Part shown: piece after piece, positions 8,858 to 26,820 of the stretch | How the letters are laid out: the number at the start of each line of letters is the position of its first letter | Numbering within the stretch: the stretch's first letter is position 1 | Source: Eubacteriales bacterium | Lineage (GTDB): Bacteria > Bacillota > Clostridia > Saccharofermentanales > UBA5734 | Length of the DNA: 32,180 bases | Reading direction: 5' to 3' | Assembly (NCBI GenBank): GCA_028695145.1 | Contig: JAQVJP010000019.1 | Coordinates: forward strand, 1-32,180 | Notes under the pieces: generated by a model | Told to the model about the DNA's origin: nothing | Databases searched by the model: none | What the model saw: only the letters and a program-made list of their open reading frames with translations | Made by a program: the position numbers and the translations under genes

Positions 8858-11566
8858 TCAGTTAGTGATTTCATGCTTGCGGATTATAACAAGAAGTGGC
8901 GTAAGATATAAATATAGTCTCAGTTTAGCAATCTTACTAGTACTTACAGTTTTTAAGCCATTAAGCAAATTACTAAATACATGCCAAACAACTCCCCACT
9001 GTTTCTGTAACATTTCACCATTGCCGTAGAGTGCTTCGTTCATAACATCAGCCGCTTGCTTCCACTCATGCGCATCAACCGTACCATGTGTCAAAGAAAA
9101 AATATCATATCGACAGTCTTCAGCGAATTTACTCCAAACCAGGCCGTTTTTAAATGCGTGACTTCCAGAGGGCATTAATTTACTTAGTACTTTTTGAACT
9201 AATTTAATCCGTGATCTAATATCTGGATATTCTGACAACCACCAATCTTCAACAAATATTTTTCTGATTTTTCTGACAAGAAGCTTAATAAAAATGTATG
9301 CCACAATAATTACGGACATTAGTACTATAATCAGAATAGAAATAAAGCGTAGAGCTTTTGCCAGAATTGAAGCAGAATCAGCCCTGATTAAATCATCATT
9401 ATTATTATTTCCAGGTGTTGGTTGAGGAATAATAGTTGGCTGAGGTGTCATAGTTATTTCTGGCAGAGGTTCATCGCGTTGAGGATGCTCCCCGGCAATT
9501 TCTAGTACAGCCGCTTCACCACCTGCAGGGGTTGCATCCATGGCTACCCAGCCAATTGGGTCAATGTAAACTTCAGTCCAGGCATGAGCCTGCTGGCCTG
9601 TTATGGTTCTTGTGAAGCCCTGATCGTTATAATCACCTTCAACAAATGAATTATTTTCGTTCGGGTCATCATCAATACTGATAATTCGCGAGTCAGAACC
9701 TGGAACATAATAACCCTCTACATAACGCGCGGGAATACCAGCAAGACGACACAGCATCGTCAGAGCAGTCGCAAAATATACACAGTATCCTTCTCTTTGC
9801 TCAAGAAACCAGCTGACAAATTCACGATCCGCCGGCGGAACCGTTACATCAAGCTTATATTTATTGTTTGTTTGTAAAAACACCCGAAGCGCTTCTGCCC
9901 TCTCGTATTGCGTATCGAGACCATCTGTAACATCAATCACTAATTGCCACAAAGAGCTCTTACTGCCATACTCCGGCAAGTCTGGTAATTGCAGATAATA
10001 TGTATCACCTAATTGCAGCAAAATGTTTTCGGGATCAAATTCGGAATCACTAATATCTATACTCATAAATTGTTTATACATGATTGGAAAAGCTATCGGG
10101 TCAGCTTCCAATTCATAACTTGAAATAGCATAACCATATCCCGGCAAGAATGGCTGAGCTGTATAAATTGCACCACCTCGATTAAAATATAACTTTTCAT
10201 CAAACGGCCAGATATCAGTTAGATCAAATGGCAGCTGATTTTCAATTTGATTAGTCTGTATTGTTATGCCCGCCGGTATGCCTGAATAGAAAACTGATCT
10301 GATTCCCTGACTCAATAACCTGATCTCATAATCCATATTTTTGATTTTCATAGGTCTTATTAAGCCATTATCATCAAGCTTCTCCTGAACACTTGCTCTC
10401 TCCTGCTCAGTTAATATGCTGTAATCAGGTTCAAAATCATAGAAGTATTCGTTATCTTTTAACTCATCAGCTATTTGTCCCTCAAAAACCTTGCTCATTT
10501 CTTGAGTCATATTTGAAAAATCAAATATCGTCATGTCCTGAGCCATTGGTAGTCGTTGCCAGCTGTTGCCAGAATAATCCACACTTACGGAACCTTTTAC
10601 CAGCATATCCTCTGGAGATCCGGCTATAGAGAATACCGGTTGAGAACTTAACGTAACCGGTCCACCAAGATTATTCTCAATAGGGTAATAGCCAGCTGTT
10701 TCAATTGAGAAATCATTAGCTGAGGTATTACCCGTATTACCAGGGTAGGAAAAATATGACACAAGATCCTCAATCGCTTGTGGTCTTTTCGCTCCTGTGA
10801 TAAAAACTGGCGATATAACGCTTGTTAATATTGTTGTAATAAGAACAACCGAAACAACTGGTAAAAGCACCTGCAGGGTCAATGTGTTCTGTATTGTTAT
10901 CAAAGGAGGGCGGACATAACTCTTCCATCCAGGTTGTTTAAGAGCAAACGCAATAAATGTTAGAGCCAAACCAATCATTGATGCGACAGCCATATCATCT
11001 AACTTTATTGCTCTTCTCGCTATAGTTAAGCCTATGACTGAAACAAGCATGAGCCAGGGATGAATGGTTCTGGCAACAAGAAGGTAGCAAAAAACCGCAA
11101 TAATGCCGCCAATCAACAATCCAAGTATCGAAATTGTTTCCAAAGGGAAATAATTTGGCTGAGCTATTAACCAATAGAACGCTTCAATCAGCCAAAAACG
11201 AGCATATTCAATTTGATTCTTGTATAAAACAAATGGACTGTTTCCGATCAAATAGGACAATATATAAAAAAGAGCGCCACTTCCAATCATTATCAGTGTT
11301 ACTTGCCAGCGCCATGCTGTGAGCGCGAGAATAATAATTACAAGTCCGGTTATAAGTGCCTGGTCTGAGATGACAAAATCAATTGCAGACAATGTCAGTG
11401 TCAGAGATATAGTCACAAGGCTGAAGCAATAAGCCAGAAGCAACCTGATAATTATTGCCGGTAGTTTTCTGGAGAAGGCAGGCTTATCAGAACTGGCAGA
11501 TTTTTTCTCATTTACCAGACTTGCTCCGCCTGCGATAATTTTGAAAACACCTTTTATTGTCGGCAT
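8858..11566 (-). CDS. TgpA-type membrane transglutaminase-like protein
   Basis: A 902-residue membrane protein. The first ~260 residues contain several hydrophobic helices. A long extracytoplasmic region leads to a transglutaminase-core domain with a complete triad: Cys595 (EGYCVYFATALTMLCRLAGIPARY), His661 (QQAHAWTEVY) and Asp677 (AMDATP). A Pro/Thr/Asn-rich linker (TPQPTIIPQPTPG) precedes one more helix at about 735-765, and a cytoplasmic DUF4129-like tail ends the protein. Proteins of this build usually sit with DUF58 and MoxR genes, as here; the start lies two bases after the DUF58 stop. The substrate is unknown; a role in envelope protein processing or crosslinking is family-level inference. 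Confidence 0.9.
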   Translation of the reverse strand: MPTIKGVFKIIAGGASLVNEKKSASSDKPAFSRKLPAIIIRLLLAYCFSLVTISLTLTLSAIDFVISDQALITGLVIIILALTAWRWQVTLIMIGSGALFYILSYLIGNSPFVLYKNQIEYARFWLIEAFYWLIAQPNYFPLETISILGLLIGGIIAVFCYLLVARTIHPWLMLVSVIGLTIARRAIKLDDMAVASMIGLALTFIAFALKQPGWKSYVRPPLITIQNTLTLQVLLPVVSVVLITTILTSVISPVFITGAKRPQAIEDLVSYFSYPGNTGNTSANDFSIETAGYYPIENNLGGPVTLSSQPVFSIAGSPEDMLVKGSVSVDYSGNSWQRLPMAQDMTIFDFSNMTQEMSKVFEGQIADELKDNEYFYDFEPDYSILTEQERASVQEKLDDNGLIRPMKIKNMDYEIRLLSQGIRSVFYSGIPAGITIQTNQIENQLPFDLTDIWPFDEKLYFNRGGAIYTAQPFLPGYGYAISSYELEADPIAFPIMYKQFMSIDISDSEFDPENILLQLGDTYYLQLPDLPEYGSKSSLWQLVIDVTDGLDTQYERAEALRVFLQTNNKYKLDVTVPPADREFVSWFLEQREGYCVYFATALTMLCRLAGIPARYVEGYYVPGSDSRIISIDDDPNENNSFVEGDYNDQGFTRTITGQQAHAWTEVYIDPIGWVAMDATPAGGEAAVLEIAGEHPQRDEPLPEITMTPQPTIIPQPTPGNNNNDDLIRADSASILAKALRFISILIIVLMSVIIVAYIFIKLLVRKIRKIFVEDWWLSEYPDIRSRIKLVQKVLSKLMPSGSHAFKNGLVWSKFAEDCRYDIFSLTHGTVDAHEWKQAADVMNEALYGNGEMLQKQWGVVWHVFSNLLNGLKTVSTSKIAKLRLYLYLTPLLVIIRKHEITN

Positions 11567-11568
11567 AA

Positions 11569-12771
11569 TTACCTATCTTTCCTCTCAAATAACGCTTCAG
11601 CTCTTATCTCATATGCCTGTACCCCGGCATCAATAATTTGCTGCCAGTATTCATTTTTTTTGCTTATATTAGGTGCTTGATCCGATACAATCAACAGGAG
11701 TAGTGCACGACCACCTTCAGATTGGTAGAACTCAAGCCAGCGAGATATTTTATCATCGAGCTGCCATGCTACAAGCACAAGATATTCAGCCGGATTATTT
11801 TCCAGTCTCATAACTAAATGTTCAGGCCACGAATAATCCTGCCAGCCAAAATTAGCCATCGATTGTCTCACAAGCTCAAATTGTTCACTGTTATTAGCAT
11901 CAGTAAATTGCCAGGCGGATGAAGCGTCAAGCCATCTGATCTGACGATGCCTTTCAATGAATGAGTACATTGATGACACCGCTGCTTCAAGTTGCCAATC
12001 TAAAAGATTAACAGCAAGTACCGAATCTACCGGAGCAGATGGCTGTACTGAAAAACAGACATACTTCCTACGCGGATCTTCGAATTCTTTTACCATGATT
12101 TCATCAAGTCTTGCTGATAATTTCCAATGAACCCGCTTAAGTGCGTCACCTGTTCGATATGAACGAACATTAGCTACTGTATCAAGCTCACTGCTAAGGG
12201 AATCACTTAACTGGCGTCCTGTCGGCAACCAGTTTTGAGGTTGCGCCCAGGGCTCTGTTGTTCGTCTTAACGCTGGAACTATAGTTACTATCCTGCGATT
12301 TTCCCGCCAGTATCGATGTGAATACTTAGGCCAATAATAAAAACCAAACACATCACGCAGAGCCGCTCTGTAAGCACCTATTTTATACAAACCACAATGA
12401 TTGGCCTGAAATTTGAAGCTGAGAGTAAACGAAGAGCGCGGCCGCAAAATAAATGATTGACGCTTAATTATTTTTTCACCATTTTCATCCTGCCAGAGGC
12501 AAAACACAGACACATAAGGGAAAAAACAAATAGAATTATTATGGCATTTAACTTCAAGAATAACTTGATCATTGCGTTCAACCACTTGCATATGCAGTCT
12601 CTGTTCGAAACTTATTATGGCCCAGCCGAAAATGTAATAAATAAGTGCTACCAATGGAAGCAGTAGACAGGCAACAAGCAGATAAAATAATTGATAAAAT
12701 CCTGTATATAATAGAACCCAGTAAAAAACCAGGCAAAAAAGCAACCACGTAGTCAGTCGCTTCGTCATCAT
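11569..12771 (-). CDS. DUF58 domain membrane protein
   Basis: A 400-residue protein with two N-terminal hydrophobic helices (about residues 8-28 and 29-50), a beta-rich middle, and the DUF58 signature VRSYRTGDALKRVHWKLSAR at 202-221, followed by LDEIMVKEFED. DUF58 proteins have a von Willebrand A-like fold and occur next to MoxR AAA+ ATPases; the pair is thought to act as a chaperone-like or assembly module. The start overlaps the moxR stop (ATGATG context; either Met is possible) and the stop is two bases before the transglutaminase gene, so the three are surely co-translated. Precise function unknown. Confidence 0.9.
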   Translation of the reverse strand: MMTKRLTTWLLFCLVFYWVLLYTGFYQLFYLLVACLLLPLVALIYYIFGWAIISFEQRLHMQVVERNDQVILEVKCHNNSICFFPYVSVFCLWQDENGEKIIKRQSFILRPRSSFTLSFKFQANHCGLYKIGAYRAALRDVFGFYYWPKYSHRYWRENRRIVTIVPALRRTTEPWAQPQNWLPTGRQLSDSLSSELDTVANVRSYRTGDALKRVHWKLSARLDEIMVKEFEDPRRKYVCFSVQPSAPVDSVLAVNLLDWQLEAAVSSMYSFIERHRQIRWLDASSAWQFTDANNSEQFELVRQSMANFGWQDYSWPEHLVMRLENNPAEYLVLVAWQLDDKISRWLEFYQSEGGRALLLLIVSDQAPNISKKNEYWQQIIDAGVQAYEIRAEALFERKDR

Positions 12772-13709
12772 GATTGTGGGATATTTACACTACGCACCAG
12801 CTCAGTCATAATCTGTTCAACGGTGCGCTGGCGCAGTCTGCTCTCCGGCCTTAAAATCAACCTGTGAGCTAAAACCGAGCCAAACATACTCTGAACATCC
12901 TCTGGAAGAACATAATCACGCCCTTGTAAAAAAGCATGTCCACGTGCAGCAAGAATCAGCATTAGCGATCCTCTTGGGCTAAGTCCTAACTGAAGATCAT
13001 GGTGATTCCTGCTCGACTGAGCCAACAGCGCCACATATCTCTTAACTGCTTCACTACAGAAAACTAATTGTACTTGTTTTTGCAGCCAGATAATTTCTTC
13101 ACTGCTAACAACTGTCTCCAAACGATCAAGCGGTGAATCTGCCGTGAATCTGCTATATATTTCCATCTCTTCTTCGAGTGTTGGATAGCCAAGAGAAATC
13201 CTTAACATAAAACGATCGAGCTGTGCTTCCGGCAAAGGATAGGTACCGTGCTGCTCAATTGGGTTTTGCGTAGCCAGCACCATAAACGGCTCCGGCAGAT
13301 CATATGTTCTGCCATCAACAGAAACCTGATTTTCCTGCATTGCCTCAAGAAGGCTTGACTGCGTTTTTGGAGAAGCTCGATTAATCTCATCAGCCAAAAC
13401 AAGCTGATTCATAATCAAACCCGGTCTGTACTCAAACTCTCCAGATTTCTGATTATACATATCAAACCCGGTAATGTCAGAAGGCATAACATCAGGAGTA
13501 AACTGAATACGCTGAAATGACAAACCAAGTGATCTGGCGATTGCCGAAACCAAGGTTGTTTTACCAATACCGGGAATATCTTCAAGCAGAACATGTCCTC
13601 TTGAAAAAATGGCAATCAAAATCAAATCAAGTGCCTGCCTTTTGCCTACCATTACATGACCGATATTGTGTCTGATTTTATCTACAAGTCCTATGGCCTG
13701 CTGATTCAT
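12768..13709 (-). CDS. MoxR-family AAA+ ATPase
   Basis: An ATPase of 313 residues, normal for the MoxR family. Walker A is GIGKTT (47-52), Walker B is LVLADEIN with Asp107 and Glu108, and sensor and arginine-finger regions follow (VLATQNPIEQHGTYPLPEAQLDRFML). No signal peptide or membrane helix is seen, so it is cytoplasmic. It is expected to work on or with the adjacent DUF58 protein, as in moxR-DUF58-tgpA loci generally. The start has GGAAGG upstream and lies 13 nt after the DAHP synthase stop. Confidence 0.94.
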   Translation of the reverse strand: MNQQAIGLVDKIRHNIGHVMVGKRQALDLILIAIFSRGHVLLEDIPGIGKTTLVSAIARSLGLSFQRIQFTPDVMPSDITGFDMYNQKSGEFEYRPGLIMNQLVLADEINRASPKTQSSLLEAMQENQVSVDGRTYDLPEPFMVLATQNPIEQHGTYPLPEAQLDRFMLRISLGYPTLEEEMEIYSRFTADSPLDRLETVVSSEEIIWLQKQVQLVFCSEAVKRYVALLAQSSRNHHDLQLGLSPRGSLMLILAARGHAFLQGRDYVLPEDVQSMFGSVLAHRLILRPESRLRQRTVEQIMTELVRSVNIPQS

Positions 13710-16287: not shown

Positions 16288-16830
16288 TTAAGATAATTTA
16301 TATAGTTTAAGCTTCCTCTGCAGAGATTTTGCCTCAGGCAGCCTCCTTGTGAGATAATTCCAAAACTCCGCACTATGATTCATGTGCTGCAGATGAGCCA
16401 GCTCATGCTCAAGAAGATAAATGAAAAGTTCATCCGGGAGGTACAAAGCCTTGAGGTTTATGTTAATATTTCGCTTACTGCTACAACTTCCCCATCTTGT
16501 CTTTTGCCTTTTGATAAAAAATCTCGCAGGTATCGGTCCATTATAATCCATCATGTAATTATCAATACGAAGCATTAATTGTTCTGACAATTTTTTATAT
16601 TCATACTTACTAATTTTATCTACGTCCGGCAACGATATGCGTGAAGACAGGCAAGACTGTTTCTGATAGATCCAGTCAAGTCTGTCTTCGATGATTTTGT
16701 CAATATGTGGCTTGGTAAAACTATAAGGACATCTTACTTCAAGACTACCATCATCGTTTATAGCAATCACAACACTACGTCTTCGCCCCCGTATTATTTT
16801 GTATTCGGGAAGCTTTTTATTTACAACCAT
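16288..16830 (-). CDS. YgjP-type (DUF45/M48-like) zinc metallopeptidase
   Basis: A soluble 180-residue protein of the YgjP/WLM-like group. It shows the family start EYKIIRGRRRSVVIAINDDG, then RQKTRWGSCSS, and a zinc site HELAH (His142, Glu143, His146 counted from the ATG at 16830), with a probable third ligand in MNHSAEFW (His152). I chose the ATG at 16830, which overlaps the previous gene by 14 nt. A GTG at 16875 would add 15 residues and overlap by 59 nt; neither has a strong ribosome site, so translation is probably coupled. Biological substrate unknown. Its place in the pyr run is likely operon hitch-hiking. Confidence 0.85.
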   Translation of the reverse strand: MVVNKKLPEYKIIRGRRRSVVIAINDDGSLEVRCPYSFTKPHIDKIIEDRLDWIYQKQSCLSSRISLPDVDKISKYEYKKLSEQLMLRIDNYMMDYNGPIPARFFIKRQKTRWGSCSSKRNININLKALYLPDELFIYLLEHELAHLQHMNHSAEFWNYLTRRLPEAKSLQRKLKLYKLS

Positions 16831-17689
16831 AACCTTGCTCAATACATAATCTTGCTCGCTCGGCTGATTTACCACCTGCCGCTATCTGCTGAGAAAGAAA
16901 ATCCGGATGACTTTTGAAAAAATTATCCATATAAGCATGAGGATCGTCAGCAAATTCCAATACCATCTCCTGCTGTTTTAAACTCATCAAACCAGCATTC
17001 ACAGCTTGATCAAACAACTCTGCGTTAATTGAAGTCAGAGTGACTAAATCAATACCTTGTTCAGCTAAAATCGCGCTTCCGCCTTGACAACGATCTACAA
17101 CCGCCAAGGTTTTGTCAATTTTCATGTTTAGCGAACGAATCGCAGGTATCCAGGCTCTGATGTAGCTTGAAGCCTCGGTTACCAGATCAGCAATATGAAT
17201 TGATCTAAGACCAGATAAATCAGTATCTTTTGCCCAGACTGTTTGTTGGAAATTGTCTGAACTAAATAATGTGCGCATATCTTTGAGAATTGTCAAATGA
17301 GGTTTGTTCATTAAAACAGCTGCCGGTATAGAAAAGAAAAAATCACGTCTTTCTCCACCAGAAATAAGATCAAATTTTTCTTCTTCCAGTTTTTCAATAA
17401 TAAGATCCATAAGTCTATGGAATATATCATTAGAATTATACTGTTTCATTATCTCTTCTACTAAAATTCCAGGCATGTTTAGAGGATCAGCAGCAGCTGC
17501 TTCAATCAATTTCAATAATGATTCCGCACTGTCTTGATCACCATAAAGGAAATGAGTATTGATATAATACGGGCCAAGTGTGCCAGAAGTATACCAGAAG
17601 GGCGACTCCGGATCTGCAACTTTAATTGCGTTCGTCTCGAACAGCCATTTCATGATCATTTTGTTTTCCGAATTGTAATCAAAGCTCAT
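16817..17689 (-). CDS. Divergent orotate phosphoribosyltransferase-like protein
   Basis: Probably supplies the orotate-to-OMP step, since it closes the pyr run directly after pyrD and no other OPRT gene is in the cluster. The N-terminus matches OPRT: MKWLFETNAIKVADPESPFWYTSGTLGPYYINTHFLYG (13-50). GGERRDFFFSIPAAVLMNKPHLTILKD aligns with the OPRT core. At 290 residues it is longer than usual PyrE (~200-230). The PRPP-binding motif reads VVDRCQGGS (197-205) instead of VVDDVITTGGS, so the second acidic residue is Arg and the loop is two residues shorter. I also cannot find the KDHG catalytic loop. It may be a diverged active enzyme or a regulatory relative. Start supported by GAGGG nine bases upstream. 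Confidence 0.75.
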   Translation of the reverse strand: MSFDYNSENKMIMKWLFETNAIKVADPESPFWYTSGTLGPYYINTHFLYGDQDSAESLLKLIEAAAADPLNMPGILVEEIMKQYNSNDIFHRLMDLIIEKLEEEKFDLISGGERRDFFFSIPAAVLMNKPHLTILKDMRTLFSSDNFQQTVWAKDTDLSGLRSIHIADLVTEASSYIRAWIPAIRSLNMKIDKTLAVVDRCQGGSAILAEQGIDLVTLTSINAELFDQAVNAGLMSLKQQEMVLEFADDPHAYMDNFFKSHPDFLSQQIAAGGKSAERARLCIEQGYGCK

Positions 17690-17734: not shown

Positions 17735-18646
17735 TCACCAGCGCCTAAGACAACCGGTAAGGCTCGATATTTCTTCTACTTCATGGTTTTGTGCCCATTC
17801 TTCCATGCTGATCACTATGTCATTACATGCTGTCGGTATTACAAGATTAGCCGTACCAACTTGGACGGCACAAGCTCCGGCAATCATAAACTCAAGCGCA
17901 TCTGCCGCATTCATGATTCCTCCCATGCCAATAACTGGAATATCTACACTGTTGAAGACTTCATTGACCATTCTTACAGCAACAGGTTTAACACCTGGTC
18001 CGGAATATCCACCTGCGTTGTTTTTTAATACTGGCCGTCTGGTTTCAATATCTATGACCATGCCCAGCAGAGTATTAATCAAGCTGACAGCGTCAGCACC
18101 TCCGTCTTGAGCGGCCAGAGCCATTTCGGAAACACTCGTTACATTAGGCGTTAGTTTGACCCATACGGGCTTATTAGTAACTGTTTTTACAGACTCGGTA
18201 ACTGCTCTGATCATTGATGCATCACTGCCAAAAGCCATACAGCCACTCGAAACATTGGGGCAGGACAGATTAAGTTCAATAGCATCAACATCGGTTTTAT
18301 CAAGTAGTTTTGCCATATCTGCGTATTCTTCGAATTGATGTCCGGCAATGTTAGCAATAACAACACAGCCATAACTAAGCATATGTGGTAATTCATGCTC
18401 AATAAAATATTCAATACCAGGATTTTGCAGGCCGACACTGTTAAGCATACCTGCATCACATTCAGCAACTCGAGGAACATCGTTGCCAAGTCGAGGTTTT
18501 ATTGTTAAACCTTTGGAACTAATACCCCCAATATTAGACAAGTCATAGTATTTTTCCATTTCCCTGCCGAAGCCAAAGGTTCCAGAAGCAGCAATCACAG
18601 GATTTTTTAGTTTAAGCTCACCTATTGAAACTCCAAGATTTACCAT
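17735..18646 (-). CDS. pyrD: Dihydroorotate dehydrogenase, class 1B catalytic subunit
   Basis: Oxidises dihydroorotate to orotate with FMN, passing electrons to PyrK and on to NAD. The 303 residues show SIGELKLKNPVIAASGTFGFG, AGMLNSVGLQNPG, and catalytic Cys129 in ELNLSCPNVSSG. A Cys base, not Ser, marks class 1. FMN phosphate loops (VIGMGGIMNAADALEFMIAGACAVQVGTA) end the domain. The heterotetrameric 1B form is confirmed by the adjoining pyrK, whose end overlaps this ATG by 7 nt, with GGAGG seven bases before it. The NAD-linked form fits an anaerobe. Confidence 0.97.
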   Translation of the reverse strand: MVNLGVSIGELKLKNPVIAASGTFGFGREMEKYYDLSNIGGISSKGLTIKPRLGNDVPRVAECDAGMLNSVGLQNPGIEYFIEHELPHMLSYGCVVIANIAGHQFEEYADMAKLLDKTDVDAIELNLSCPNVSSGCMAFGSDASMIRAVTESVKTVTNKPVWVKLTPNVTSVSEMALAAQDGGADAVSLINTLLGMVIDIETRRPVLKNNAGGYSGPGVKPVAVRMVNEVFNSVDIPVIGMGGIMNAADALEFMIAGACAVQVGTANLVIPTACNDIVISMEEWAQNHEVEEISSLTGCLRRW

Positions 18647-19440
18647 ACTACCGCCTCCGCATCAAACACCGGTCCGTCAGCACAACAGCGGCTATTTTCA
18701 ATTTCACCGTCACTACCTTTTGTTTTGCATACACAAACAAGACAGACACCTACTCCACAAGCCATTCTCTCCTCCAAGGAAACTTGACAGCTTATACCAG
18801 CTGCGGCAGCTTGTTCAGCAGCAGTTCGCATCATAATTTTCGGACCACAAGCGGCTATCAGTGTGCGGCTCAAATCAGCTTTTTTCTCTATCAGATCAGC
18901 AATTACACCAGCCAGCGCATGTCCAGCATGTCCAGCTATAGTCATATCACCTGCATCAGACGCAAAACTCACGGCACAAGCTGTTTTAGTAAATTCTTCA
19001 GTTAAAATACTCTCTGCCGCTGACCTGTAACCGCAAACAGCGATACCCTCGATTCCATGTTCTTGACAATACTGTTGCACAAAAAACAAAGGAAAAACAC
19101 CTGTTCCACCACCAACAGTTATAACCCTATCATAGTTATCAAGCTTGAAGCCGTGGCCAAGAGGCCCAAGTAAACTTACATAATGACCAGGTTGAAGGAC
19201 TGACAAATTTAATGTTCCTTCGCCTTGTATTCTTATACCAACAGAAAACAATCCTTGTTCACGATCTACTGACATAATGCCAATCGGACGTCTAAGAAAC
19301 TTATCTGCTGAAATATTCACAAATTGACCTGGCATAGCAAGAGACGCTATTTCCGGTGAAGCGAAAGTCAGTATGACAAAAGATGCGTTCGGTTGCTGCC
19401 TCTTTACAATCTGGCAGCGAAATTCAATTTGTTGCGGCAA
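18640..19440 (-). CDS. pyrK: Dihydroorotate dehydrogenase electron transfer subunit PyrK
   Basis: Electron-transfer partner of PyrD, carrying FAD and a 2Fe-2S cluster. It shows a ferredoxin-reductase FAD domain (RRPIGIMSV, GIRIQGEGTLNLSVLQPGHYVSLLGPLGHGF), an NAD-binding part (VITVGGGTGVFPLFF), and a C-terminal cluster motif with Cys228, Cys233, Cys236 and Cys252/253 (CGVGVCLVC...CCADGPVF). It has 266 residues, normal length. The start is TTG at 19440, since GGAG lies seven bases upstream and no ATG fits. It is 36 nt from the carB stop and overlaps pyrD. Confidence 0.96.
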   Translation of the reverse strand: MPQQIEFRCQIVKRQQPNASFVILTFASPEIASLAMPGQFVNISADKFLRRPIGIMSVDREQGLFSVGIRIQGEGTLNLSVLQPGHYVSLLGPLGHGFKLDNYDRVITVGGGTGVFPLFFVQQYCQEHGIEGIAVCGYRSAAESILTEEFTKTACAVSFASDAGDMTIAGHAGHALAGVIADLIEKKADLSRTLIAACGPKIMMRTAAEQAAAAGISCQVSLEERMACGVGVCLVCVCKTKGSDGEIENSRCCADGPVFDAEAVVW

Positions 19441-19476: not shown

Positions 19477-22400
19477 TTACTTTTTTAACATTACATTATC
19501 AAGTGGCAATTCATTCAATGGCAGGCAATTGTGTCTTGTTTGTTTGACAATTTCTGCAAATTTACTAATTTCCCATGTCTTCAAATCCTGTGGATTCAGT
19601 TTACGCTGCAAACATTCAGTTACAGCAACCAGTGTATCGAGTGAAGTTATAGTCGCAACTCCATGCTCGATTGCCCTGCGGCGTAGCTTAAAACCGTTTA
19701 GACCGCCAAGCTGACCATGAGGGCTCTCAGTATTTATCAATAATTTTACCCTGCCCTGGTCAATCAAATCAACAACATTAGGTGAATTTTCTTCCATTTT
19801 TCTTACAGAACTGCATGGTATACCATGTTTGTTAAGATAATTAGCCGTTCCACCTGTACCGTATAGTTCATAACCCATTGCAGACAATTTTTCCGCAAGT
19901 GGCACAAGATCAGATTTATCATTATCGGCGACAGTCATTAAAACACCTGCTCCAGCCGCCGGAAATCTAAATCCAGATGCCAGAATCGCTTTATACATTG
20001 CCTCGCTGTATGTTGTTGAGAGCCCAAGAACTTCACCGGTACTCTTCATTTCCGGTCCGAGATTAGTATCAACATCATGCAGTTTTTCAAAAGAAAAAAC
20101 TGGTGCTTTTATCGCGTAAACGGCTGGATATCTCGCAAATAATCCAGTTCCATATGAAAAATCAACGAGTTTGGCGCCAAGCATTATTCTTGTTGCCAGA
20201 TTAACAATAGGAATGCCGGTTACTTTGCTTATGTAAGGTACTGTACGTGATGATCTTGGATTAACTTCAATAATATAAATTTTGTCATTAAATAGAATAA
20301 ACTGAATATTAATCAATCCAATGATATTCATCTCTTTGGCAATTCTACTAGTATATTCAACAATTGTATCTCTAACTCTATCCGGAATATAGGCAGGGAA
20401 AATTGAGATTGAGTCACCGGAGTGAACCCCAGCTCTTTCAAGATGTTCCATAATACCTGGTATAAGTATGTTTTCACCATCTGATACGGCATCAACCTCA
20501 AGTTCAACACCCATTAGGTATTTATCAACCAGAATTGGATGCTCCTGTTCAACCATATTTATGATTCTCATGTATTCAATCATATCCTCGTCATTATGAA
20601 CTATGGCCATTCCCTGACCACCGAGAACATATGAAGGACGAACAAGTACCGGATATCCAAGATCTGAAGCCGCCGCAAGTGCTTCCTCTGTTGAGGTAAC
20701 AGTGGTGCCGGCCGGCCTGTCGATACCACATACTTCAAGAATCTCATCAAAACGTTTTCTGTCTTCTGCAGCATCTACCATATCCGCAGAAGTTCCGAGA
20801 ATCGGCACACCCAAATCAGAGATTTTTTTTATCAATTTAATTGCGGTTTGCCCACCAAACTGACAAATACAGCCGTCAGGTTTTTCATTGGCAATAATCG
20901 CTTCTACATCATCCGCTGTCAAAGGTTCGAAATAGAGTCTATCAGATGTATCGAAGTCAGTAGATACTGTTTCAGGATTATTGTTAGCAATTATTGCTTC
21001 ATAGCCAAGCTCGCGTAGAGCCCAAACGGAATGAACACTGCAATAATCAAACTCAATGCCCTGTCCTATCCTGATTGGACCGGAACCAATTACCAAAACC
21101 TTTTTGCGTTCAGTTCGTTTCGCTTCATTATTGATATCTGTAGTGGAATAAAAATACGGGGTTATCGCATCATATTCACCAGCACATGTATCAACCATTT
21201 TATAAGTTTGTGTTTGATTGTTTGCCGCCCTCAATCTGACAATTTCTTCTCTATCTAAACCTGATAACTGGGCGATCCAACTATTGTTAAATCCCATTTT
21301 CATAGCGTTATTAATAAGCTCAAAGTCACAATTGCCTTTTGACAGAAGCAGCTTCTGCTCAGTATTAACAATATTGTCAATTTTACATAGAAAAAACTTA
21401 TCAATCATGGTTCTGTCATATATTTCATCTATGGAGAAGCCTCTTCTCAGACCTTCAGCCAGGCTGAAAAGTCTCGTATCATCTGCTGTACAAATCTTCA
21501 ACCAGAGCATTTCGTCATTAAGCTGAGCAAGAGCAGGTAAATGAAGGCCCTGCAGTCCAAGCTCAAGAGATCTAATAGCTTTTAACAGAGCTGCTTCAAC
21601 AGTACTGCCGATAGCCATTATTTCACCGGTAGCTTTCATCTGTGTGCCCAAAGTTCTTCTTGCTTTGACAAATTTATCAAATGGCCATTTGGGTATTTTC
21701 ATGACTATATAATCTATTGCAGGTTCGAAACAAGCCGAAGTGGTACCGGTAACAGCATTAGGGATTTCATCGAGCGTATATCCGGCAGCTATTTTTGAAG
21801 CTACCTTGGCAATTGGATAACCGGTTGCTTTTGAAGCAAGGGCAGAACTCCTTGACAATCGCGGATTGACTTCAATTACAGCATATTCAGCTGTTGTCGG
21901 GTGCTGAGCAAATTGAACATTGCAGCCGCCGACTATACCCAGTTCATTGACAATTTTTAATGCTGAACTTCTCAGCTTCTGATATTCAAGATCATGCAGA
22001 GTCTGAGCCGGAGCAATAACAATTGAGTCACCTGTATGAACGCCAACCGGATCAAGGTTTTCCATACTGCAAATCGTGATCGCGTTACCGGCTGCATCAC
22101 GCACAGCTTCAAACTCAATTTCTTTCCATCCAGCTATGCTTCGTTCTATCAGCACCTGATGAACACGACTGGCAGCTAGTCCAGATGCCGCGAACTCACG
22201 CAGGCTTTTTTCATCAGCAGCAATACCACCACCAGTTCCACCAAGAGTAAAAGCTGGTCTCACTATGACCGGATAGCCAATCTTATCAGCCATTTGCAAA
22301 CATTCTTCCACAGACCCGGCGGTACCTGAAGGTATGCACGGTTCATTGATTTTCATCATCGCGGCACGAAAAGCTTCGCGGTCTTCTCCGCGGAATATCC

Positions 22401-22764
22401 CCTCGGCAGTAGTCCCCAGAAGTTTAATATTATGCTTCTCAAGGAATCCATTCTCCGATAATTCCATAGCGAAATTCAGACCGGTCTGTCCGCCAAGTGT
22501 TGCAAGTAGAGCATCAACTCTTTCTTCTATCATTATATTCTGTATTACATCAATCTGTAGAGGTTCAATATAAACACGATCTGCCATATTGCTGTCTGTC
22601 ATGATAGTCGCCGGATTGCTATTAACAAGAATTACTTTATATCCTTCTGACTTCAAAGCCTGACATGCTTGTGTACCGGCATAATCAAATTCCGCGGCTT
22701 GTCCGATAATAATCGGACCTGAGCCTATAACCATTACTCTCTCGATATCTGTTCTCGCAGGCAT
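19477..22764 (-). CDS. carB: Carbamoyl phosphate synthase large subunit
   Basis: Makes carbamoyl phosphate from ammonia (channelled from glutamine by CarA), bicarbonate and two ATP. The 1095 residues are two tandem homologous halves, each beginning VMVIGSGPIIIGQAAEFDYAG or VLVIGSGPIRIGQGIEFDY and each with an ATP-grasp domain. A C-terminal MGS-like allosteric domain (about residues 950-1065) is where UMP or ornithine bind in relatives. The protein appears complete. No carA gene lies on either side, although the two are usually adjacent; the glutaminase subunit must be elsewhere or absent. It is preceded by AGGAGA and a 98-nt gap with repeats, so it may have its own regulation. Confidence 0.98.
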   Translation of the reverse strand: MPARTDIERVMVIGSGPIIIGQAAEFDYAGTQACQALKSEGYKVILVNSNPATIMTDSNMADRVYIEPLQIDVIQNIMIEERVDALLATLGGQTGLNFAMELSENGFLEKHNIKLLGTTAEGIFRGEDREAFRAAMMKINEPCIPSGTAGSVEECLQMADKIGYPVIVRPAFTLGGTGGGIAADEKSLREFAASGLAASRVHQVLIERSIAGWKEIEFEAVRDAAGNAITICSMENLDPVGVHTGDSIVIAPAQTLHDLEYQKLRSSALKIVNELGIVGGCNVQFAQHPTTAEYAVIEVNPRLSRSSALASKATGYPIAKVASKIAAGYTLDEIPNAVTGTTSACFEPAIDYIVMKIPKWPFDKFVKARRTLGTQMKATGEIMAIGSTVEAALLKAIRSLELGLQGLHLPALAQLNDEMLWLKICTADDTRLFSLAEGLRRGFSIDEIYDRTMIDKFFLCKIDNIVNTEQKLLLSKGNCDFELINNAMKMGFNNSWIAQLSGLDREEIVRLRAANNQTQTYKMVDTCAGEYDAITPYFYSTTDINNEAKRTERKKVLVIGSGPIRIGQGIEFDYCSVHSVWALRELGYEAIIANNNPETVSTDFDTSDRLYFEPLTADDVEAIIANEKPDGCICQFGGQTAIKLIKKISDLGVPILGTSADMVDAAEDRKRFDEILEVCGIDRPAGTTVTSTEEALAAASDLGYPVLVRPSYVLGGQGMAIVHNDEDMIEYMRIINMVEQEHPILVDKYLMGVELEVDAVSDGENILIPGIMEHLERAGVHSGDSISIFPAYIPDRVRDTIVEYTSRIAKEMNIIGLINIQFILFNDKIYIIEVNPRSSRTVPYISKVTGIPIVNLATRIMLGAKLVDFSYGTGLFARYPAVYAIKAPVFSFEKLHDVDTNLGPEMKSTGEVLGLSTTYSEAMYKAILASGFRFPAAGAGVLMTVADNDKSDLVPLAEKLSAMGYELYGTGGTANYLNKHGIPCSSVRKMEENSPNVVDLIDQGRVKLLINTESPHGQLGGLNGFKLRRRAIEHGVATITSLDTLVAVTECLQRKLNPQDLKTWEISKFAEIVKQTRHNCLPLNELPLDNVMLKK

Positions 22765-22862: not shown

Positions 22863-23846
22863 TCAGCCTCTTGCGGCAAGTGCCTTGCGTAGATTTTCTC
22901 TCATTTGCACAGCTTCCTGGCGGCAAGCGATATCAAAAGCTTCGTGCGGAAGGTCTTGTTTTTTATATGCACACATGAGGCTCCGAGATGCATTTACTAT
23001 TCCACCTTTACCATCTTCGCCAAAACCTGCGACAGCATCATCAGCTCCAGCACCTTGAGCACCATATCCAGGGACAAGAATAAATGTTTTGGGCATTCTT
23101 CTTCTAAGTTCCGCAGCCTGCTCCGGCCAAGTAGCACCAACAACAGCACCTGCAGAGCTATACCCACATTTACCGACCAAATCAAGACCCCATTCAGACA
23201 CCTTATCAGCCATCGCTTCATATACTTTTCGACCATCTTCAAGTCTGAGATCCTGAATATCCGTTGCGGATGGATTTGATGTTCTCACAAGTATAAATAT
23301 ACCTTTTCCATTTTCTCTGCAAATTTTTAAGAACGGCTCGATACCGTCAATCCCCAACCAGGCGTTGGCGGTGATACAATCAGCACCGAGCATGGCCTTA
23401 ACACTTCCATCAGGAAGAGTCGTCCGACCCAAAATAGCATCGGCATAAGCTCCGGCCGTCGAGCCGATATCATTTCTTTTACCATCGGCAATGACAAGCA
23501 TTCCTTTTCTCTTAGCGTATTCAATCGTTTGTCTTAGAGCTTCCCAGCCATGCACTCCGTATTTCTCATAATATGCCAGCTGAGGTTTAACCGCTGGTAC
23601 TATTTCACAGGTGGCATCAATAAGCCGGCGATTGAACTCATAAATTGCAAGGCCTGCCGCCATAGCAGGATCATCACAATTTTCGTTGATATATGAAGTA
23701 ATCGGCTCCGGTATATATTCGATAAGCGGATCCAATCCCATCACTGTTGGATTGCCAAGCTTATCAATACGAGCTTGCAGCTTATCCGCGAAGTTTTCAT
23801 AAACACTTCCAGACGCTGAATTGATATTTCTATCTTCATGCTTCAT
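22863..23846 (-). CDS. pyrF: Orotidine 5'-phosphate decarboxylase, type 2
   Basis: Decarboxylates OMP to UMP, the last de novo step. The 327-residue protein belongs to the longer type-2 subfamily. It has VMGLDPLIEYIP near the start, VKPQLAYYEKYG (Lys87), the catalytic tetrad segment VIADGKRNDIGSTAGAYA (Asp121, Lys123, Asp126), and FILVPGYGAQGAGADDAVAGF for phosphate binding. The start overlaps the pyrC end by 11 nt with GGGAGG upstream. A 98-nt gap separates it from carB, the largest break in the cluster. Confidence 0.96.
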   Translation of the reverse strand: MKHEDRNINSASGSVYENFADKLQARIDKLGNPTVMGLDPLIEYIPEPITSYINENCDDPAMAAGLAIYEFNRRLIDATCEIVPAVKPQLAYYEKYGVHGWEALRQTIEYAKRKGMLVIADGKRNDIGSTAGAYADAILGRTTLPDGSVKAMLGADCITANAWLGIDGIEPFLKICRENGKGIFILVRTSNPSATDIQDLRLEDGRKVYEAMADKVSEWGLDLVGKCGYSSAGAVVGATWPEQAAELRRRMPKTFILVPGYGAQGAGADDAVAGFGEDGKGGIVNASRSLMCAYKKQDLPHEAFDIACRQEAVQMRENLRKALAARG

Positions 23847-25098
23847 ATCTAATTTTTCCTCCCTGAACAGTCATTACTATTTTCCCATACAGTTCAAAAC
23901 CATCATAAGGCGTATTTTTTGCTTTGCCAACAATTTGCTTCTTGTCAAAAACAAAAGAGTTTTCCAGATCCGCAATAATCAAATCTGCAGGACTACCTGA
24001 ATCAATTGTACCAAGCTTCTGTCCAAGAATTTTTGCCGGGTCAGTAGTAAATTTGGCAAGCATTTTTTCCAATGACATGCGTCCACTTCTGACCAGCCAG
24101 GTGTATGCAAGTGCAAAAGCTGTCTCGAAGCCGACAATCCCGTTATTTGCCAAGGCGAACTCGATTTCTTTTTCGTCTGCGTGGTGTGGTGCGTGATCAG
24201 TCGCGATTATATCAATAGTACCGTCAACAAGACCTGCGATAATAGCTTCCCGGTCTGATTCAGGTCGGAGAGGCGGGTTCATTTTTGCCATGGTATTGAA
24301 GCCCCTTACAGCTTCCTCATTCAATGTAAAGTAATGCGGACAAGTCTCACAAGTAACCGGGACACCTCTATCTTTTGCCATTCTGACAAGATCAATACTG
24401 CGAGCTGTACTAAGATGCGCAAGGTGTATAGGTATATTTAAATACTCAGACAATATGATATCACGTGCTACCATGATTTCTTCAGCTGCTGCCGGAATTC
24501 CTTTGAGGCCAAGTTCTGTACTAACTATACCTTCATTCATATGACCGTCAGCCAAGCTCATGTCTTCACAATGAGAAATAACTCTAAGACCAAACTGATT
24601 GGCATAAATCATTGCTTTGCGCATCATATCTGACTGTTCAACAGGTCTGCCATCATCGGAAACAGCAACTATACCTGCCTCAGCCATCAGACCAATCTCA
24701 GCAAGCTCACTACCCTTCTGGCCTTTTGTAACCGCACCAATAGGCAACACCCTGCACGATCCCTGTTCCTCTGCTTTATGAATGATATATTCAACTATTG
24801 CAGCATTATCACAAACCGGGCTTGTGTTAGGCATACAGGCAATAGTTGTAAATCCTCCACGTGCGGCGCTTCTTGTACCACTTACGATATCTTCGCGGTA
24901 TTCGAAGCCAGGCTCTCGCAAATGACAGTGTGCGTCTATTAGGCCAGGCATTACCGCTTTACCTTCAGCATCAATTTCGCGATCTGTAACAAACCCATTA
25001 CCACTCACAAAAATTCCATTTTCTATATAGATGTTTCTAATTTCTCGAGACTGTTTAACCGGGTCTATGACAAGACCATTTTTAATCAGTATACGCAT
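23836..25098 (-). CDS. pyrC: Dihydroorotase
   Basis: Cyclises carbamoyl aspartate to dihydroorotate. A 420-residue amidohydrolase of the Bacillus-type (class I) group. Zinc ligands are in DAHCHLREPG (His57, His59), with HLAHLSTARS and ATDHAPHHADEKE further on. I chose the ATG at 25098, which shares one base with the pyrB stop (TGATG) and has GGAGG eight bases upstream. A GTG one codon earlier is possible. It forms the usual pyrB-pyrC pair, co-translated. Confidence 0.97.
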   Translation of the reverse strand: MRILIKNGLVIDPVKQSREIRNIYIENGIFVSGNGFVTDREIDAEGKAVMPGLIDAHCHLREPGFEYREDIVSGTRSAARGGFTTIACMPNTSPVCDNAAIVEYIIHKAEEQGSCRVLPIGAVTKGQKGSELAEIGLMAEAGIVAVSDDGRPVEQSDMMRKAMIYANQFGLRVISHCEDMSLADGHMNEGIVSTELGLKGIPAAAEEIMVARDIILSEYLNIPIHLAHLSTARSIDLVRMAKDRGVPVTCETCPHYFTLNEEAVRGFNTMAKMNPPLRPESDREAIIAGLVDGTIDIIATDHAPHHADEKEIEFALANNGIVGFETAFALAYTWLVRSGRMSLEKMLAKFTTDPAKILGQKLGTIDSGSPADLIIADLENSFVFDKKQIVGKAKNTPYDGFELYGKIVMTVQGGKIRYEA

Positions 25099-26024
25099 CA
25101 CTGATTCCTCCTTGAAGTAAGTAGATAGAGTACTGCCATTCTTACAGCTACCCCATTTGAGACTTGTTCATTAATTACCGATTGTGGAGAATCATATACA
25201 GCTGTAGGCATTTCAACACCATGATTGCATGGCCCTGGATGCATTAGTATCGCATCTGATTTGGCCATTTTTAAAACATCCTCACTTATTGAGAAGAAGC
25301 GCGCATATTCACTTACAGACGGGAACAAACCACTCTGCTGACGTTCGAGCTGTACTCGCAATCCCATTACCACATCAGCATCTTTTACTGCATCTTCGAC
25401 CTTCGAGCACAGAATCGCTGGGGTTCTTTCTATTCCTGGTGGAACCATAGTCGCAGGTCCGGCAAGATAAACCTGTGCGCCCATTTTGCTTAATCCCCAG
25501 AGATTACTTCTGGCAACTCTACTGTGAAGCAGATCTCCGACAATGGCTACCTTGAGACCTTCAAGTGTACCCTTATGTTTCCTGATCGTCATCATGTCAA
25601 GCAAGGCCTGTGTCGGATGCTCGTTCATGCCATCGCCGGCATTTATAACTGAGGCATTTATTTTTGAAGCAATGAGATGAGGCGCTCCGCTCTGCTGGTG
25701 CCGCATGATTACAATGTCAGTTGCCATACTATCAATCGTTCTGGCTGTATCAATCAATGATTCACCTTTTTTCACGCTGCTGCCTGATGCAGAAATATTC
25801 GCTGAAGAAGCGCCCATGAATTTTGAAGCCATCTCAAATGATAATCTTGTTCTTGTACTGTTTTCATAAAAAAGCGTTACAACTGATTTACCCTGCAGAT
25901 GCGAAGTCTTCTTACTGTTGGCAGACAGTACAAGTCTCATGGTATCAGCTGTATCAAGAATCAGCGATATCTCCTCTTTGCTTAACTCTTTCAAACCAAG
26001 CAGATCTTTACTTATCAGCTGCAT
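25098..26024 (-). CDS. pyrB: Aspartate carbamoyltransferase catalytic subunit
   Basis: Joins carbamoyl phosphate to aspartate, the first committed pyrimidine step. The 308 residues carry the carbamoyl-phosphate motif FYENSTRTRLSFE (Ser56-Thr57-Arg58-Thr59-Arg60), GDGMNEHPTQALLDMMTI, and HPGPCNHGVEM. No pyrI regulatory gene is present, as is usual in Gram-positives. The ATG at 26024 is preferred over a TTG two codons earlier because GGAAGG lies nine bases before it; this leaves two bases between it and the pyrR stop. Confidence 0.97.
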   Translation of the reverse strand: MQLISKDLLGLKELSKEEISLILDTADTMRLVLSANSKKTSHLQGKSVVTLFYENSTRTRLSFEMASKFMGASSANISASGSSVKKGESLIDTARTIDSMATDIVIMRHQQSGAPHLIASKINASVINAGDGMNEHPTQALLDMMTIRKHKGTLEGLKVAIVGDLLHSRVARSNLWGLSKMGAQVYLAGPATMVPPGIERTPAILCSKVEDAVKDADVVMGLRVQLERQQSGLFPSVSEYARFFSISEDVLKMAKSDAILMHPGPCNHGVEMPTAVYDSPQSVINEQVSNGVAVRMAVLYLLTSRRNQ

Positions 26025-26026
26025 AA

Positions 26027-26596
<570 letters not shown>

Positions 26597-26624
26597 TTAT
26601 AAATACTGGCAAAAGTCTCAACAA

Positions 26625-26655
26625 CAAAAAAGCCCTCTGTCCTGAGACAGAAGAC
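26625..26655 (-). terminator. Attenuator terminator of the pyr leader
   Basis: On the minus strand, GTCTTCTGTC and GACAGAGGGC form a 10-bp stem (with GU pairs) around a TCAG loop, followed directly by a run of six T and a G. This is a standard intrinsic terminator, 47 nt before the pyrR start codon, and it must be read through for the operon to be expressed. Its 5' arm (TCTTCTG) can alternatively pair with CAGAAGG in the upstream PyrR-binding-like sequence, giving an antiterminator. Confidence 0.8.
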
Positions 26656-26767
26656 CTGGCATCTGAAGTTCGCGCCACCCACAGACAAAATTTGTTATAT
26701 TTATGTCAGCCTGAAGAACAAACTGATACAATAAACTGTCCGCATATAAGCTAAAACATCGTATGAC

Positions 26768-26781
26768 AACCCTTCTGGACT
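26768..26781 (-). promoter_or_regulatory. PyrR-binding-loop-like sequence in the pyr leader RNA
   Basis: Minus-strand RNA reads AGUCCAGAAGGGUU, agreeing with the Bacillus PyrR consensus ARUCCNGNGAGGYU at 12 of 14 positions; the two mismatches are a swapped GA/AG pair. It can fold as AGUCC/GGGUU around an AGAA loop. PyrR-UMP bound here would keep it from pairing with the terminator 5' arm, allowing termination. The placement upstream of pyrR and a terminator supports the call; the consensus is recalled from memory. Confidence 0.65.
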
Positions 26782-26820
26782 CACAGGACCAGTTAAAAGG
26801 TATTACTTTTCTTGAAACTA

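Follow-up and report, generated by a model that had tools for sequence, protein, structure and literature searches.

The final gene of a pyr operon in a clostridial metagenome-assembled genome (MAG) very probably codes for a functional orotate phosphoribosyltransferase (OPRT), the enzyme of step five in pyrimidine synthesis, which would form OMP and PPi from orotate and PRPP: its product belongs to a divergent subfamily that seems to have replaced PyrE in its own lineage and in many other Clostridia. This reading draws on the gap that the operon otherwise leaves in the pathway, the lack of any other PyrE in the genome, the mutual exclusion of the two forms across genomes, the predicted fold, and residues that are invariant in the subfamily. 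The subfamily is sizeable and, as a PyrE substitute, apparently uncharacterised; its active site departs from the standard one. The original prediction had allowed that it might prove to be large and biochemically known: large it is, with 417 stretches in one genome collection, and a search of the open-licence literature found neither papers on the subfamily nor any biochemistry of it. The available text of one paper names a Faecalibacterium pyrE, by name only (PMC8200495), and public databases may already carry many of the OPRT-like relatives under the name OPRT.

The pyr operon and the other phosphoribosyltransferases of the genome

The window (the whole stretch of 32,180 nucleotides analysed here) carries on its minus strand a series of pyrimidine genes in the order pyrR-pyrB-pyrC-pyrF-carB-pyrK-pyrD, followed by the OPRT-like gene as the last pyr gene of the operon. 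The latter is a real ORF at 16817..17689 (minus strand, ATG start, 290 aa), at the coordinates originally predicted. Two of the upstream genes are recognized by models above their cut-offs: pyrD, a type 1B dihydroorotate dehydrogenase (17735..18646; NF005574, 418 bits), and pyrF of subfamily 2 (22863..23846; TIGR02127, 277 bits). The gene pyrR (26027..26578) matches PF00156 at 3.9e-21 and is named from sequence and position; pyrB (25098..26030), pyrC (23836..25101) and carB (19477..22764) were assigned by eye from their ORF translations, and pyrK (18640..19440) from its translation and position. Genes from pyrR to the OPRT-like ORF are spaced by -11 to +98 nt, and 45 nt separate pyrD from the OPRT-like ORF, whose start is preceded by a purine-rich stretch, AGGAATGAGGG. 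Other than a weak 6-pair match within carB, there are no terminator-like sites on the operon strand between pyrR and the OPRT-like ORF; the total count of such sites equals the chance expectation. Directly upstream of pyrR lies a PyrR-type attenuation leader (26623..26804, minus strand), which matches Rfam RF00515 with an E-value of 1.6e-4 but, at 41.3 bits, does not reach the gathering score of 54; this region also contains a 12-pair terminator-like hairpin (26657-26630). As carA is found on a separate contig (C125), the operon and carA together cover every other step of de novo UMP synthesis, leaving OPRT as the sole step otherwise missing.

Downstream, the gene end is overlapped by 59 nt by an ORF for a YgjP-like metallopeptidase (16288-16875, minus strand), and a YgjP-like gene is also present at 16 of 80 loci of the OPRT-like family. 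Elsewhere in the window, at 8858-13709 on the minus strand, we noted three clustered ORFs whose products by eye resemble a transglutaminase-like membrane protein, a DUF58-like protein and a MoxR-type ATPase.

The product of 16817..17689 had been proposed as the sole PyrE candidate of the cluster; this is borne out, and it is also the sole credible one in the whole genome. The assembly (98.68% complete, 223 contigs) yields 11 PF00156 matches, none of them an ordinary PyrE: by sequence they include HPRT-, UPRT-, ComF-, PurF-, APT- and XPT-like proteins, two PRPP synthase-like proteins, one phosphoribosyltransferase (PRTase) of unclear kind and the pyrR of the window. A canonical pyrE elsewhere was envisaged in the original prediction; the genome-wide search found none above the model cut-offs, with the best TIGR00336 match (46.8 bits against a cut-off of 106.8) being an APT-like ORF, and the best TIGR01367 match reaching 37.4 bits (cut-off 150.25). 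The OPRT-like protein was itself not among the TIGR01367 matches at E <= 1.

These searches bear on a rival reading, namely that the OPRT-like protein is a PRTase homologue without catalytic activity that regulates the pyr operon or serves as a subunit, OMP being made by another protein of the genome. The change in its PRPP loop and the lack of the catalytic loop would fit such a role, as would the presence in the same genome of another odd PRTase relative: a 214-aa protein (PGHFATRNSHVNYYLNMT...), coded at 33293-33934 on the minus strand of contig C200 (L015:1369-2010), which shows weak matches to both TIGR01367 and TIGR00336. However, the PRPP-loop region of the C200 protein, LLLAASTTTGTT, is devoid of acidic residues, and the distribution of its family does not depend on PyrE type: of the 36 carriers among 291 Clostridia genomes, 25 have ordinary PyrE, eight the OPRT-like family and three neither. 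Hence, the C200 protein is not an alternative PyrE, and we ruled it out as the true one. Moreover, regulation is already accounted for by PyrR and its leader, and the strict exclusion with PyrE described below fits a shared enzymatic role. We therefore regard a dead homologue as improbable; the related proposal of a regulatory protein with the true PyrE elsewhere is likewise unsupported, since the genome has no ordinary PyrE and the two forms do not co-occur in the 291 Clostridia genomes.

Predicted fold, conserved motifs and a possible active site

No curated model recognizes the OPRT-like protein. It has no Pfam match at E <= 1, and just 9 of 76 family sequences match PF00156 at E <= 0.1. 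It falls below the cut-offs of all NCBIfam OPRT models (NF001729, 39.1 bits of 245; TIGR00336, 23.8 of 106.8), which we count against its being an OPRT. NF001729 is nevertheless matched at E <= 0.1 by all 76 family sequences, at best with an E-value of 4e-17, and its cut-off is also missed by an ordinary clostridial PyrE (L124, 158.7 bits).

An AlphaFold2 model based on the 76-sequence alignment (pLDDT 94.3, pTM 0.89) predicts a type I PRTase fold with an OPRT hood. The best nine entries in a VIA-align search with this model are all OPRTs or UMP synthases (Z 21.6 to 17.5), with human UMPS at 18.5, E. coli OPRT at about 16 to 17 and adenine PRTases (APRTs) from 17.2; Foldseek places first the same Burkholderia cenocepacia OPRT entry as VIA-align. 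Relative to ordinary OPRTs, a comparison of element lists and alignments indicates extra helices at about 69-86 and 250-284. At the usual position of the mobile catalytic loop the model has a short, confidently predicted hairpin (140-144 and 149-152; pLDDT about 97).

We compared the motifs in 76 aligned relatives from the OPRT-like family that are 39-60% identical to the protein of the window and in eight ordinary PyrEs chosen from 12 loci examined. Of 80 loci of the family, 65 were taken into an alignment (L045 was omitted as there are stops within its match, L064 as it starts at a contig edge, and 13 more for length). Near the N-terminus, the hood or orotate-site signature SPFWYTSGTLGPYYINTHFLYG (about residues 29-50; 17540..17605, minus strand) aligns with the hood of ordinary OPRTs, and S35, G39 and N44 are each present in all 76 relatives; the OPRT-like N-terminus claimed in the original prediction (FWYTSGTLGPYYINTH) thus holds up. 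The equivalent of the pyrophosphate loop, GGERRD (about residues 110-116; 17342..17362, minus strand), follows a GG.RRD pattern found in 76 of 76 relatives as against none of the eight ordinary PyrEs.

The PRPP loop needs a reassignment. The original prediction had identified it as VVDRCQGGS, shortened by two residues. This stretch (about residues 197-206; 17072..17098, minus strand) instead conforms to a VxDRxQGG motif downstream of the PRPP loop: it aligns with LLDREQGG of human UMPS (2wns) and pairs with the downstream motif of clostridial PyrEs in hhalign, alignments that rule it out as the PRPP motif. R200, Q202 and G204 within it are each conserved in 76 of 76 relatives. The PRPP motif itself aligns, about 30 residues earlier and with no shortening, with HIADLVTEASSY (residues 165-176; 17162..17197, minus strand): hhalign against the eight ordinary PyrEs pairs HIADLVTEASS with VIEDLISTGGS of the ordinary clostridial forms, and the alignment to human UMPS, obtained by hmmsearch of the 76-sequence profile against PDB sequences, covers the whole region from kvlHiaDliteAss to avvdRkqgGrevL. 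That the PRPP site is altered was correctly predicted, if at the wrong motif: the protein has AD in place of the usual DD or ED, and the adjacent acidic pair is present in 8 of 8 ordinary PyrEs as against 0 of 76 relatives. The first acidic position is never an acid in the relatives (A in 73, V in two and S in one); the second, D168, is retained by all 76, as are H165 and S175, with T171 in 74 and S174 in 75. A single-acid loop is also seen in the UPRT-like ORF of the same genome, which reads VVLDPMLATGGS, so such loops occur in other PRTases. The predicted lack of the usual catalytic loop is equally confirmed, with the K-x-H-G string being found in one of 76 relatives as against 8 of 8 ordinary PyrEs.

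H165, R114, R115, D116, K136, R178, W180 and R200 are invariant in the family. This invariance of active-site residues across 76 relatives at 39-60% identity to the protein of the window argues for an enzyme under constraint; a gene in decay would not be expected to show such full retention, among relatives, of candidate active-site residues specific to the family.

The same comparisons address the proposal that the protein is a PRTase for another base, such as a purine or uracil, which travels with the operon while OMP is made by an unknown route or the organism is a pyrimidine auxotroph. The central part is indeed APRT-like, with matches to the adenine PRTase models TIGR01090 (25.4 bits of a cut-off of 185.85) and NF002632 (27.9 of 243), both below cut-off, and APRT structures at Z about 17. 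Yet in the alignments the hood at the N-terminus and the DRxQGG motif pair with OPRTs rather than APRTs, OPRT structures rank first, and the genome already has APT-, XPT-, HPRT- and UPRT-like ORFs, as named by sequence; with all the other pathway genes present, auxotrophy is unlikely too. We consider this proposal poorly credible, marginally more so than that of a dead homologue.

Taking the protein to be an OPRT, a possible active site can be outlined. In known OPRTs the DRxQGG motif contacts orotate through its Arg, an interaction for which we found no support in open-licence papers. Orotate could sit with the hood (FWYTSGxxGPYYxNTH) on one side and the VVDRxQGG strand on the other, the invariant Arg200 taking part. 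T171, S174 and S175 of HIADLVTEASSY would bind the 5'-phosphate of PRPP; the single invariant Asp168, perhaps aided by the invariant His165, would bind the ribose hydroxyls; and the GGERRD loop, via Arg114 and Arg115, together with Lys136 might bind pyrophosphate, taking over from the mobile K-x-H-G loop of ordinary OPRTs. In M. tuberculosis OPRT, as described in the available text of its structural study, backbone and Thr/Ser groups of the PRPP motif bind the 5'-phosphate, Glu120 contacts both O2' and O3' and Asp121 O2' only, and pyrophosphate is held by Lys95, Arg94 and other basic residues (PMC5430920). By analogy, the family would have kept the second Asp and the half of the motif that binds the phosphate, and lost the residue contacting both hydroxyls, with H165, R114, R115 and K136 being candidate substitutes. 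The loss in all relatives of the first acid, equivalent to Glu120, counts against the OPRT reading. So does the missing K-x-H-G loop, given that K103 of this loop is essential for kcat in E. coli OPRT, a residue which the available text also reports as not conserved in C. botulinum (PMC10087573).

A bolder version of the OPRT reading is that the catalytic site of the enzyme is organized differently: a single Asp, and an invariant His two residues before the lost acid, would hold the PRPP ribose, and the Arg-Arg-Asp loop with a pre-ordered hairpin (about 140-152) would replace the mobile loop that reaches the neighbouring subunit, so that catalysis would proceed without a dimer-crossing loop, PyrE having been replaced repeatedly in Clostridia. 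We offer this version tentatively, as one that is rather more apt to be wrong than right.

Distribution across Clostridia

The OPRT-like family is present in 18 of 23 genomes of the family-level group and in 140 of 188 genomes of an order-level sample at a threshold of E < 1e-40, with four weak matches being set aside (G013, G015, G062 and G114; E 4e-7 to 9e-5, G114 5e-8). In that sample, PyrF (TIGR02127) is found in 146 of 188 genomes: 136 have it together with the OPRT-like family and ten have PyrF only, while four have only the OPRT-like family and 38 neither. Among the ten PyrF-only genomes, G061 has a short-type PyrE (L128), and in G009, G012, G079 and G114 pyrF lies near a contig end. 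TIGR00336 is above cut-off in just four of the 188 (G054, G056, G072 and G162), of which G162 alone also has the OPRT-like family; its match (L126:1474-2283) is a fusion of a helix-turn-helix (HTH) domain to a PRTase. A further carrier, G106, has a TIGR00336 match below cut-off that by eye is a similar fusion (L127:1468-2262). The matches in these two carriers count against the OPRT reading, though both are HTH-PRTase fusions. The OPRT-like domains of these fusions lack K-x-H-G, and the proteins are possibly transcription regulators that sense a PRTase ligand.

Across the class, we drew an even sample of 291 Clostridia genomes, with the OPRT-like family called at E <= 1e-30 and ordinary PyrE by TIGR00336 at E <= 1e-18, a threshold set to admit the short type and bar APTs. 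The family is found in 47 genomes and ordinary PyrE in 202, both in none and neither in 42: this is a strict mutual exclusion (Fisher p 9e-30, with relatedness ignored). Restricting the count to the 252 genomes with a type 1 PyrD gives 46 with the OPRT-like family, 196 with ordinary PyrE, none with both and ten with neither; the last ten, at the thresholds used, count against the OPRT reading. Type 1 PyrD is thus present in 46 of the 47 carriers, and in the 47th (G303) pyrD, pyrK and pyrF adjoin the gene at lower similarity (L143). The carriers fall in 14 family-level groups, and two of these, f27 and f42, also hold genomes with ordinary PyrE; the occurrence of both forms within each of these groups suggests that the replacement recurred.

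This distribution also disposes of a more trivial explanation, namely that an ordinary pyrE lies in a stretch missing from an incomplete MAG. The genome is at 98.7% completeness and in 223 contigs, which leaves some room for this; however, ordinary PyrE is found in 0 of the 47 carriers of the class sample, inclusive of the single-contig genomes G211, G319, G375, G382, G402 and G456. As closed carrier genomes without ordinary PyrE already contradict it, we give this explanation practically no weight.

Gene neighbourhoods of the family were compared at 80 loci from named records: pyrD is in the fetched flank at 55, a same-strand pyr gene is present at 52, and pyrD is directly upstream at 37. At 25 of the 80 pyrD is not in reach, with some of these ending at a contig edge, and we count this against the OPRT reading. 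The carriers include uncultured Clostridiaceae, Saccharofermentans, Mageeibacillus, Ruminiclostridium, Hungateiclostridiaceae and the Ruminococcaceae strains KHP2 and YRB3002, and the closest named record, at 60% identity, comes from a Clostridiaceae MAG (L036). We find support for the original proposal that the protein completes the pyr operon as an OPRT with a non-standard PRPP/Mg site.

A few further observations concern individual members of the family. A tblastn search of 72,556 plasmid records gave no match, and we rejected a plasmid origin of the gene. Long open frames in G001 and G002 (664 and 629 aa) were not accepted as fusions, the upstream translation being a low-complexity frame; the member at G053:C13:18893-19726 lies within a 780-aa open frame and is a possible fusion. 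Two genomes, G024 (C86 and C38) and G111 (C189 and C48), have two OPRT-like copies each.

Comparison with known phosphoribosyltransferases

If the OPRT reading is right, an essential pyrimidine step is seemingly carried by this subfamily in roughly every sixth Clostridia genome sampled. Since the Pfam and NCBIfam models, judged by the protein of the window, miss it at their cut-offs, model-based reconstructions would call the carriers pyrE-less and pyrimidine auxotrophs. An active enzyme would further mean that OPRT chemistry can do without the PRPP acidic pair and also without the mobile catalytic loop.

The nearest solved fold is that of the Burkholderia cenocepacia OPRT (PDB 4ohc, 9e5g; Z 21.6 over 206 residues, rmsd 2.1, 22% identity). 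Like the protein of the window, it has a pyrophosphate loop with GGE and an unusual PRPP loop (VEDLTTDSRSK); unlike it, the Burkholderia enzyme still has an acidic pair (ED), carries a K-x-F-G loop (RKKPKGFGR), is without GGERRD and is shorter, at about 220-236 aa versus 290. Ordinary PyrE (TIGR00336; the types of E. coli and B. subtilis) shares the hood and the order of the core, and has its PRPP loop and its DR motif at the corresponding positions (hhalign probability 97.8); it differs in being without the helical insert (about 66-105) and the tail (about 250-290).

Adenine phosphoribosyltransferase shares the central region with its G-x-E-x-R-x-F-x-F pyrophosphate loop; it is without the OPRT hood and the DRxQGG motif, and ranks lower in the structural comparison. 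The C. difficile PyrE is presumably of the short clostridial type defined by TIGR01367. The available text of a genetic study establishes PyrE function in that organism through uracil auxotrophy and FOA resistance (PMC3566075). The short PyrE of G061 (L128; 224.7 bits, 197 aa) resembles the protein of the window in having no K-x-H-G loop, and thus the missing loop alone does not rule out an OPRT; in contrast to the window protein, it keeps the acidic pair (VEDVVTTGKS), and its sequence is otherwise different.
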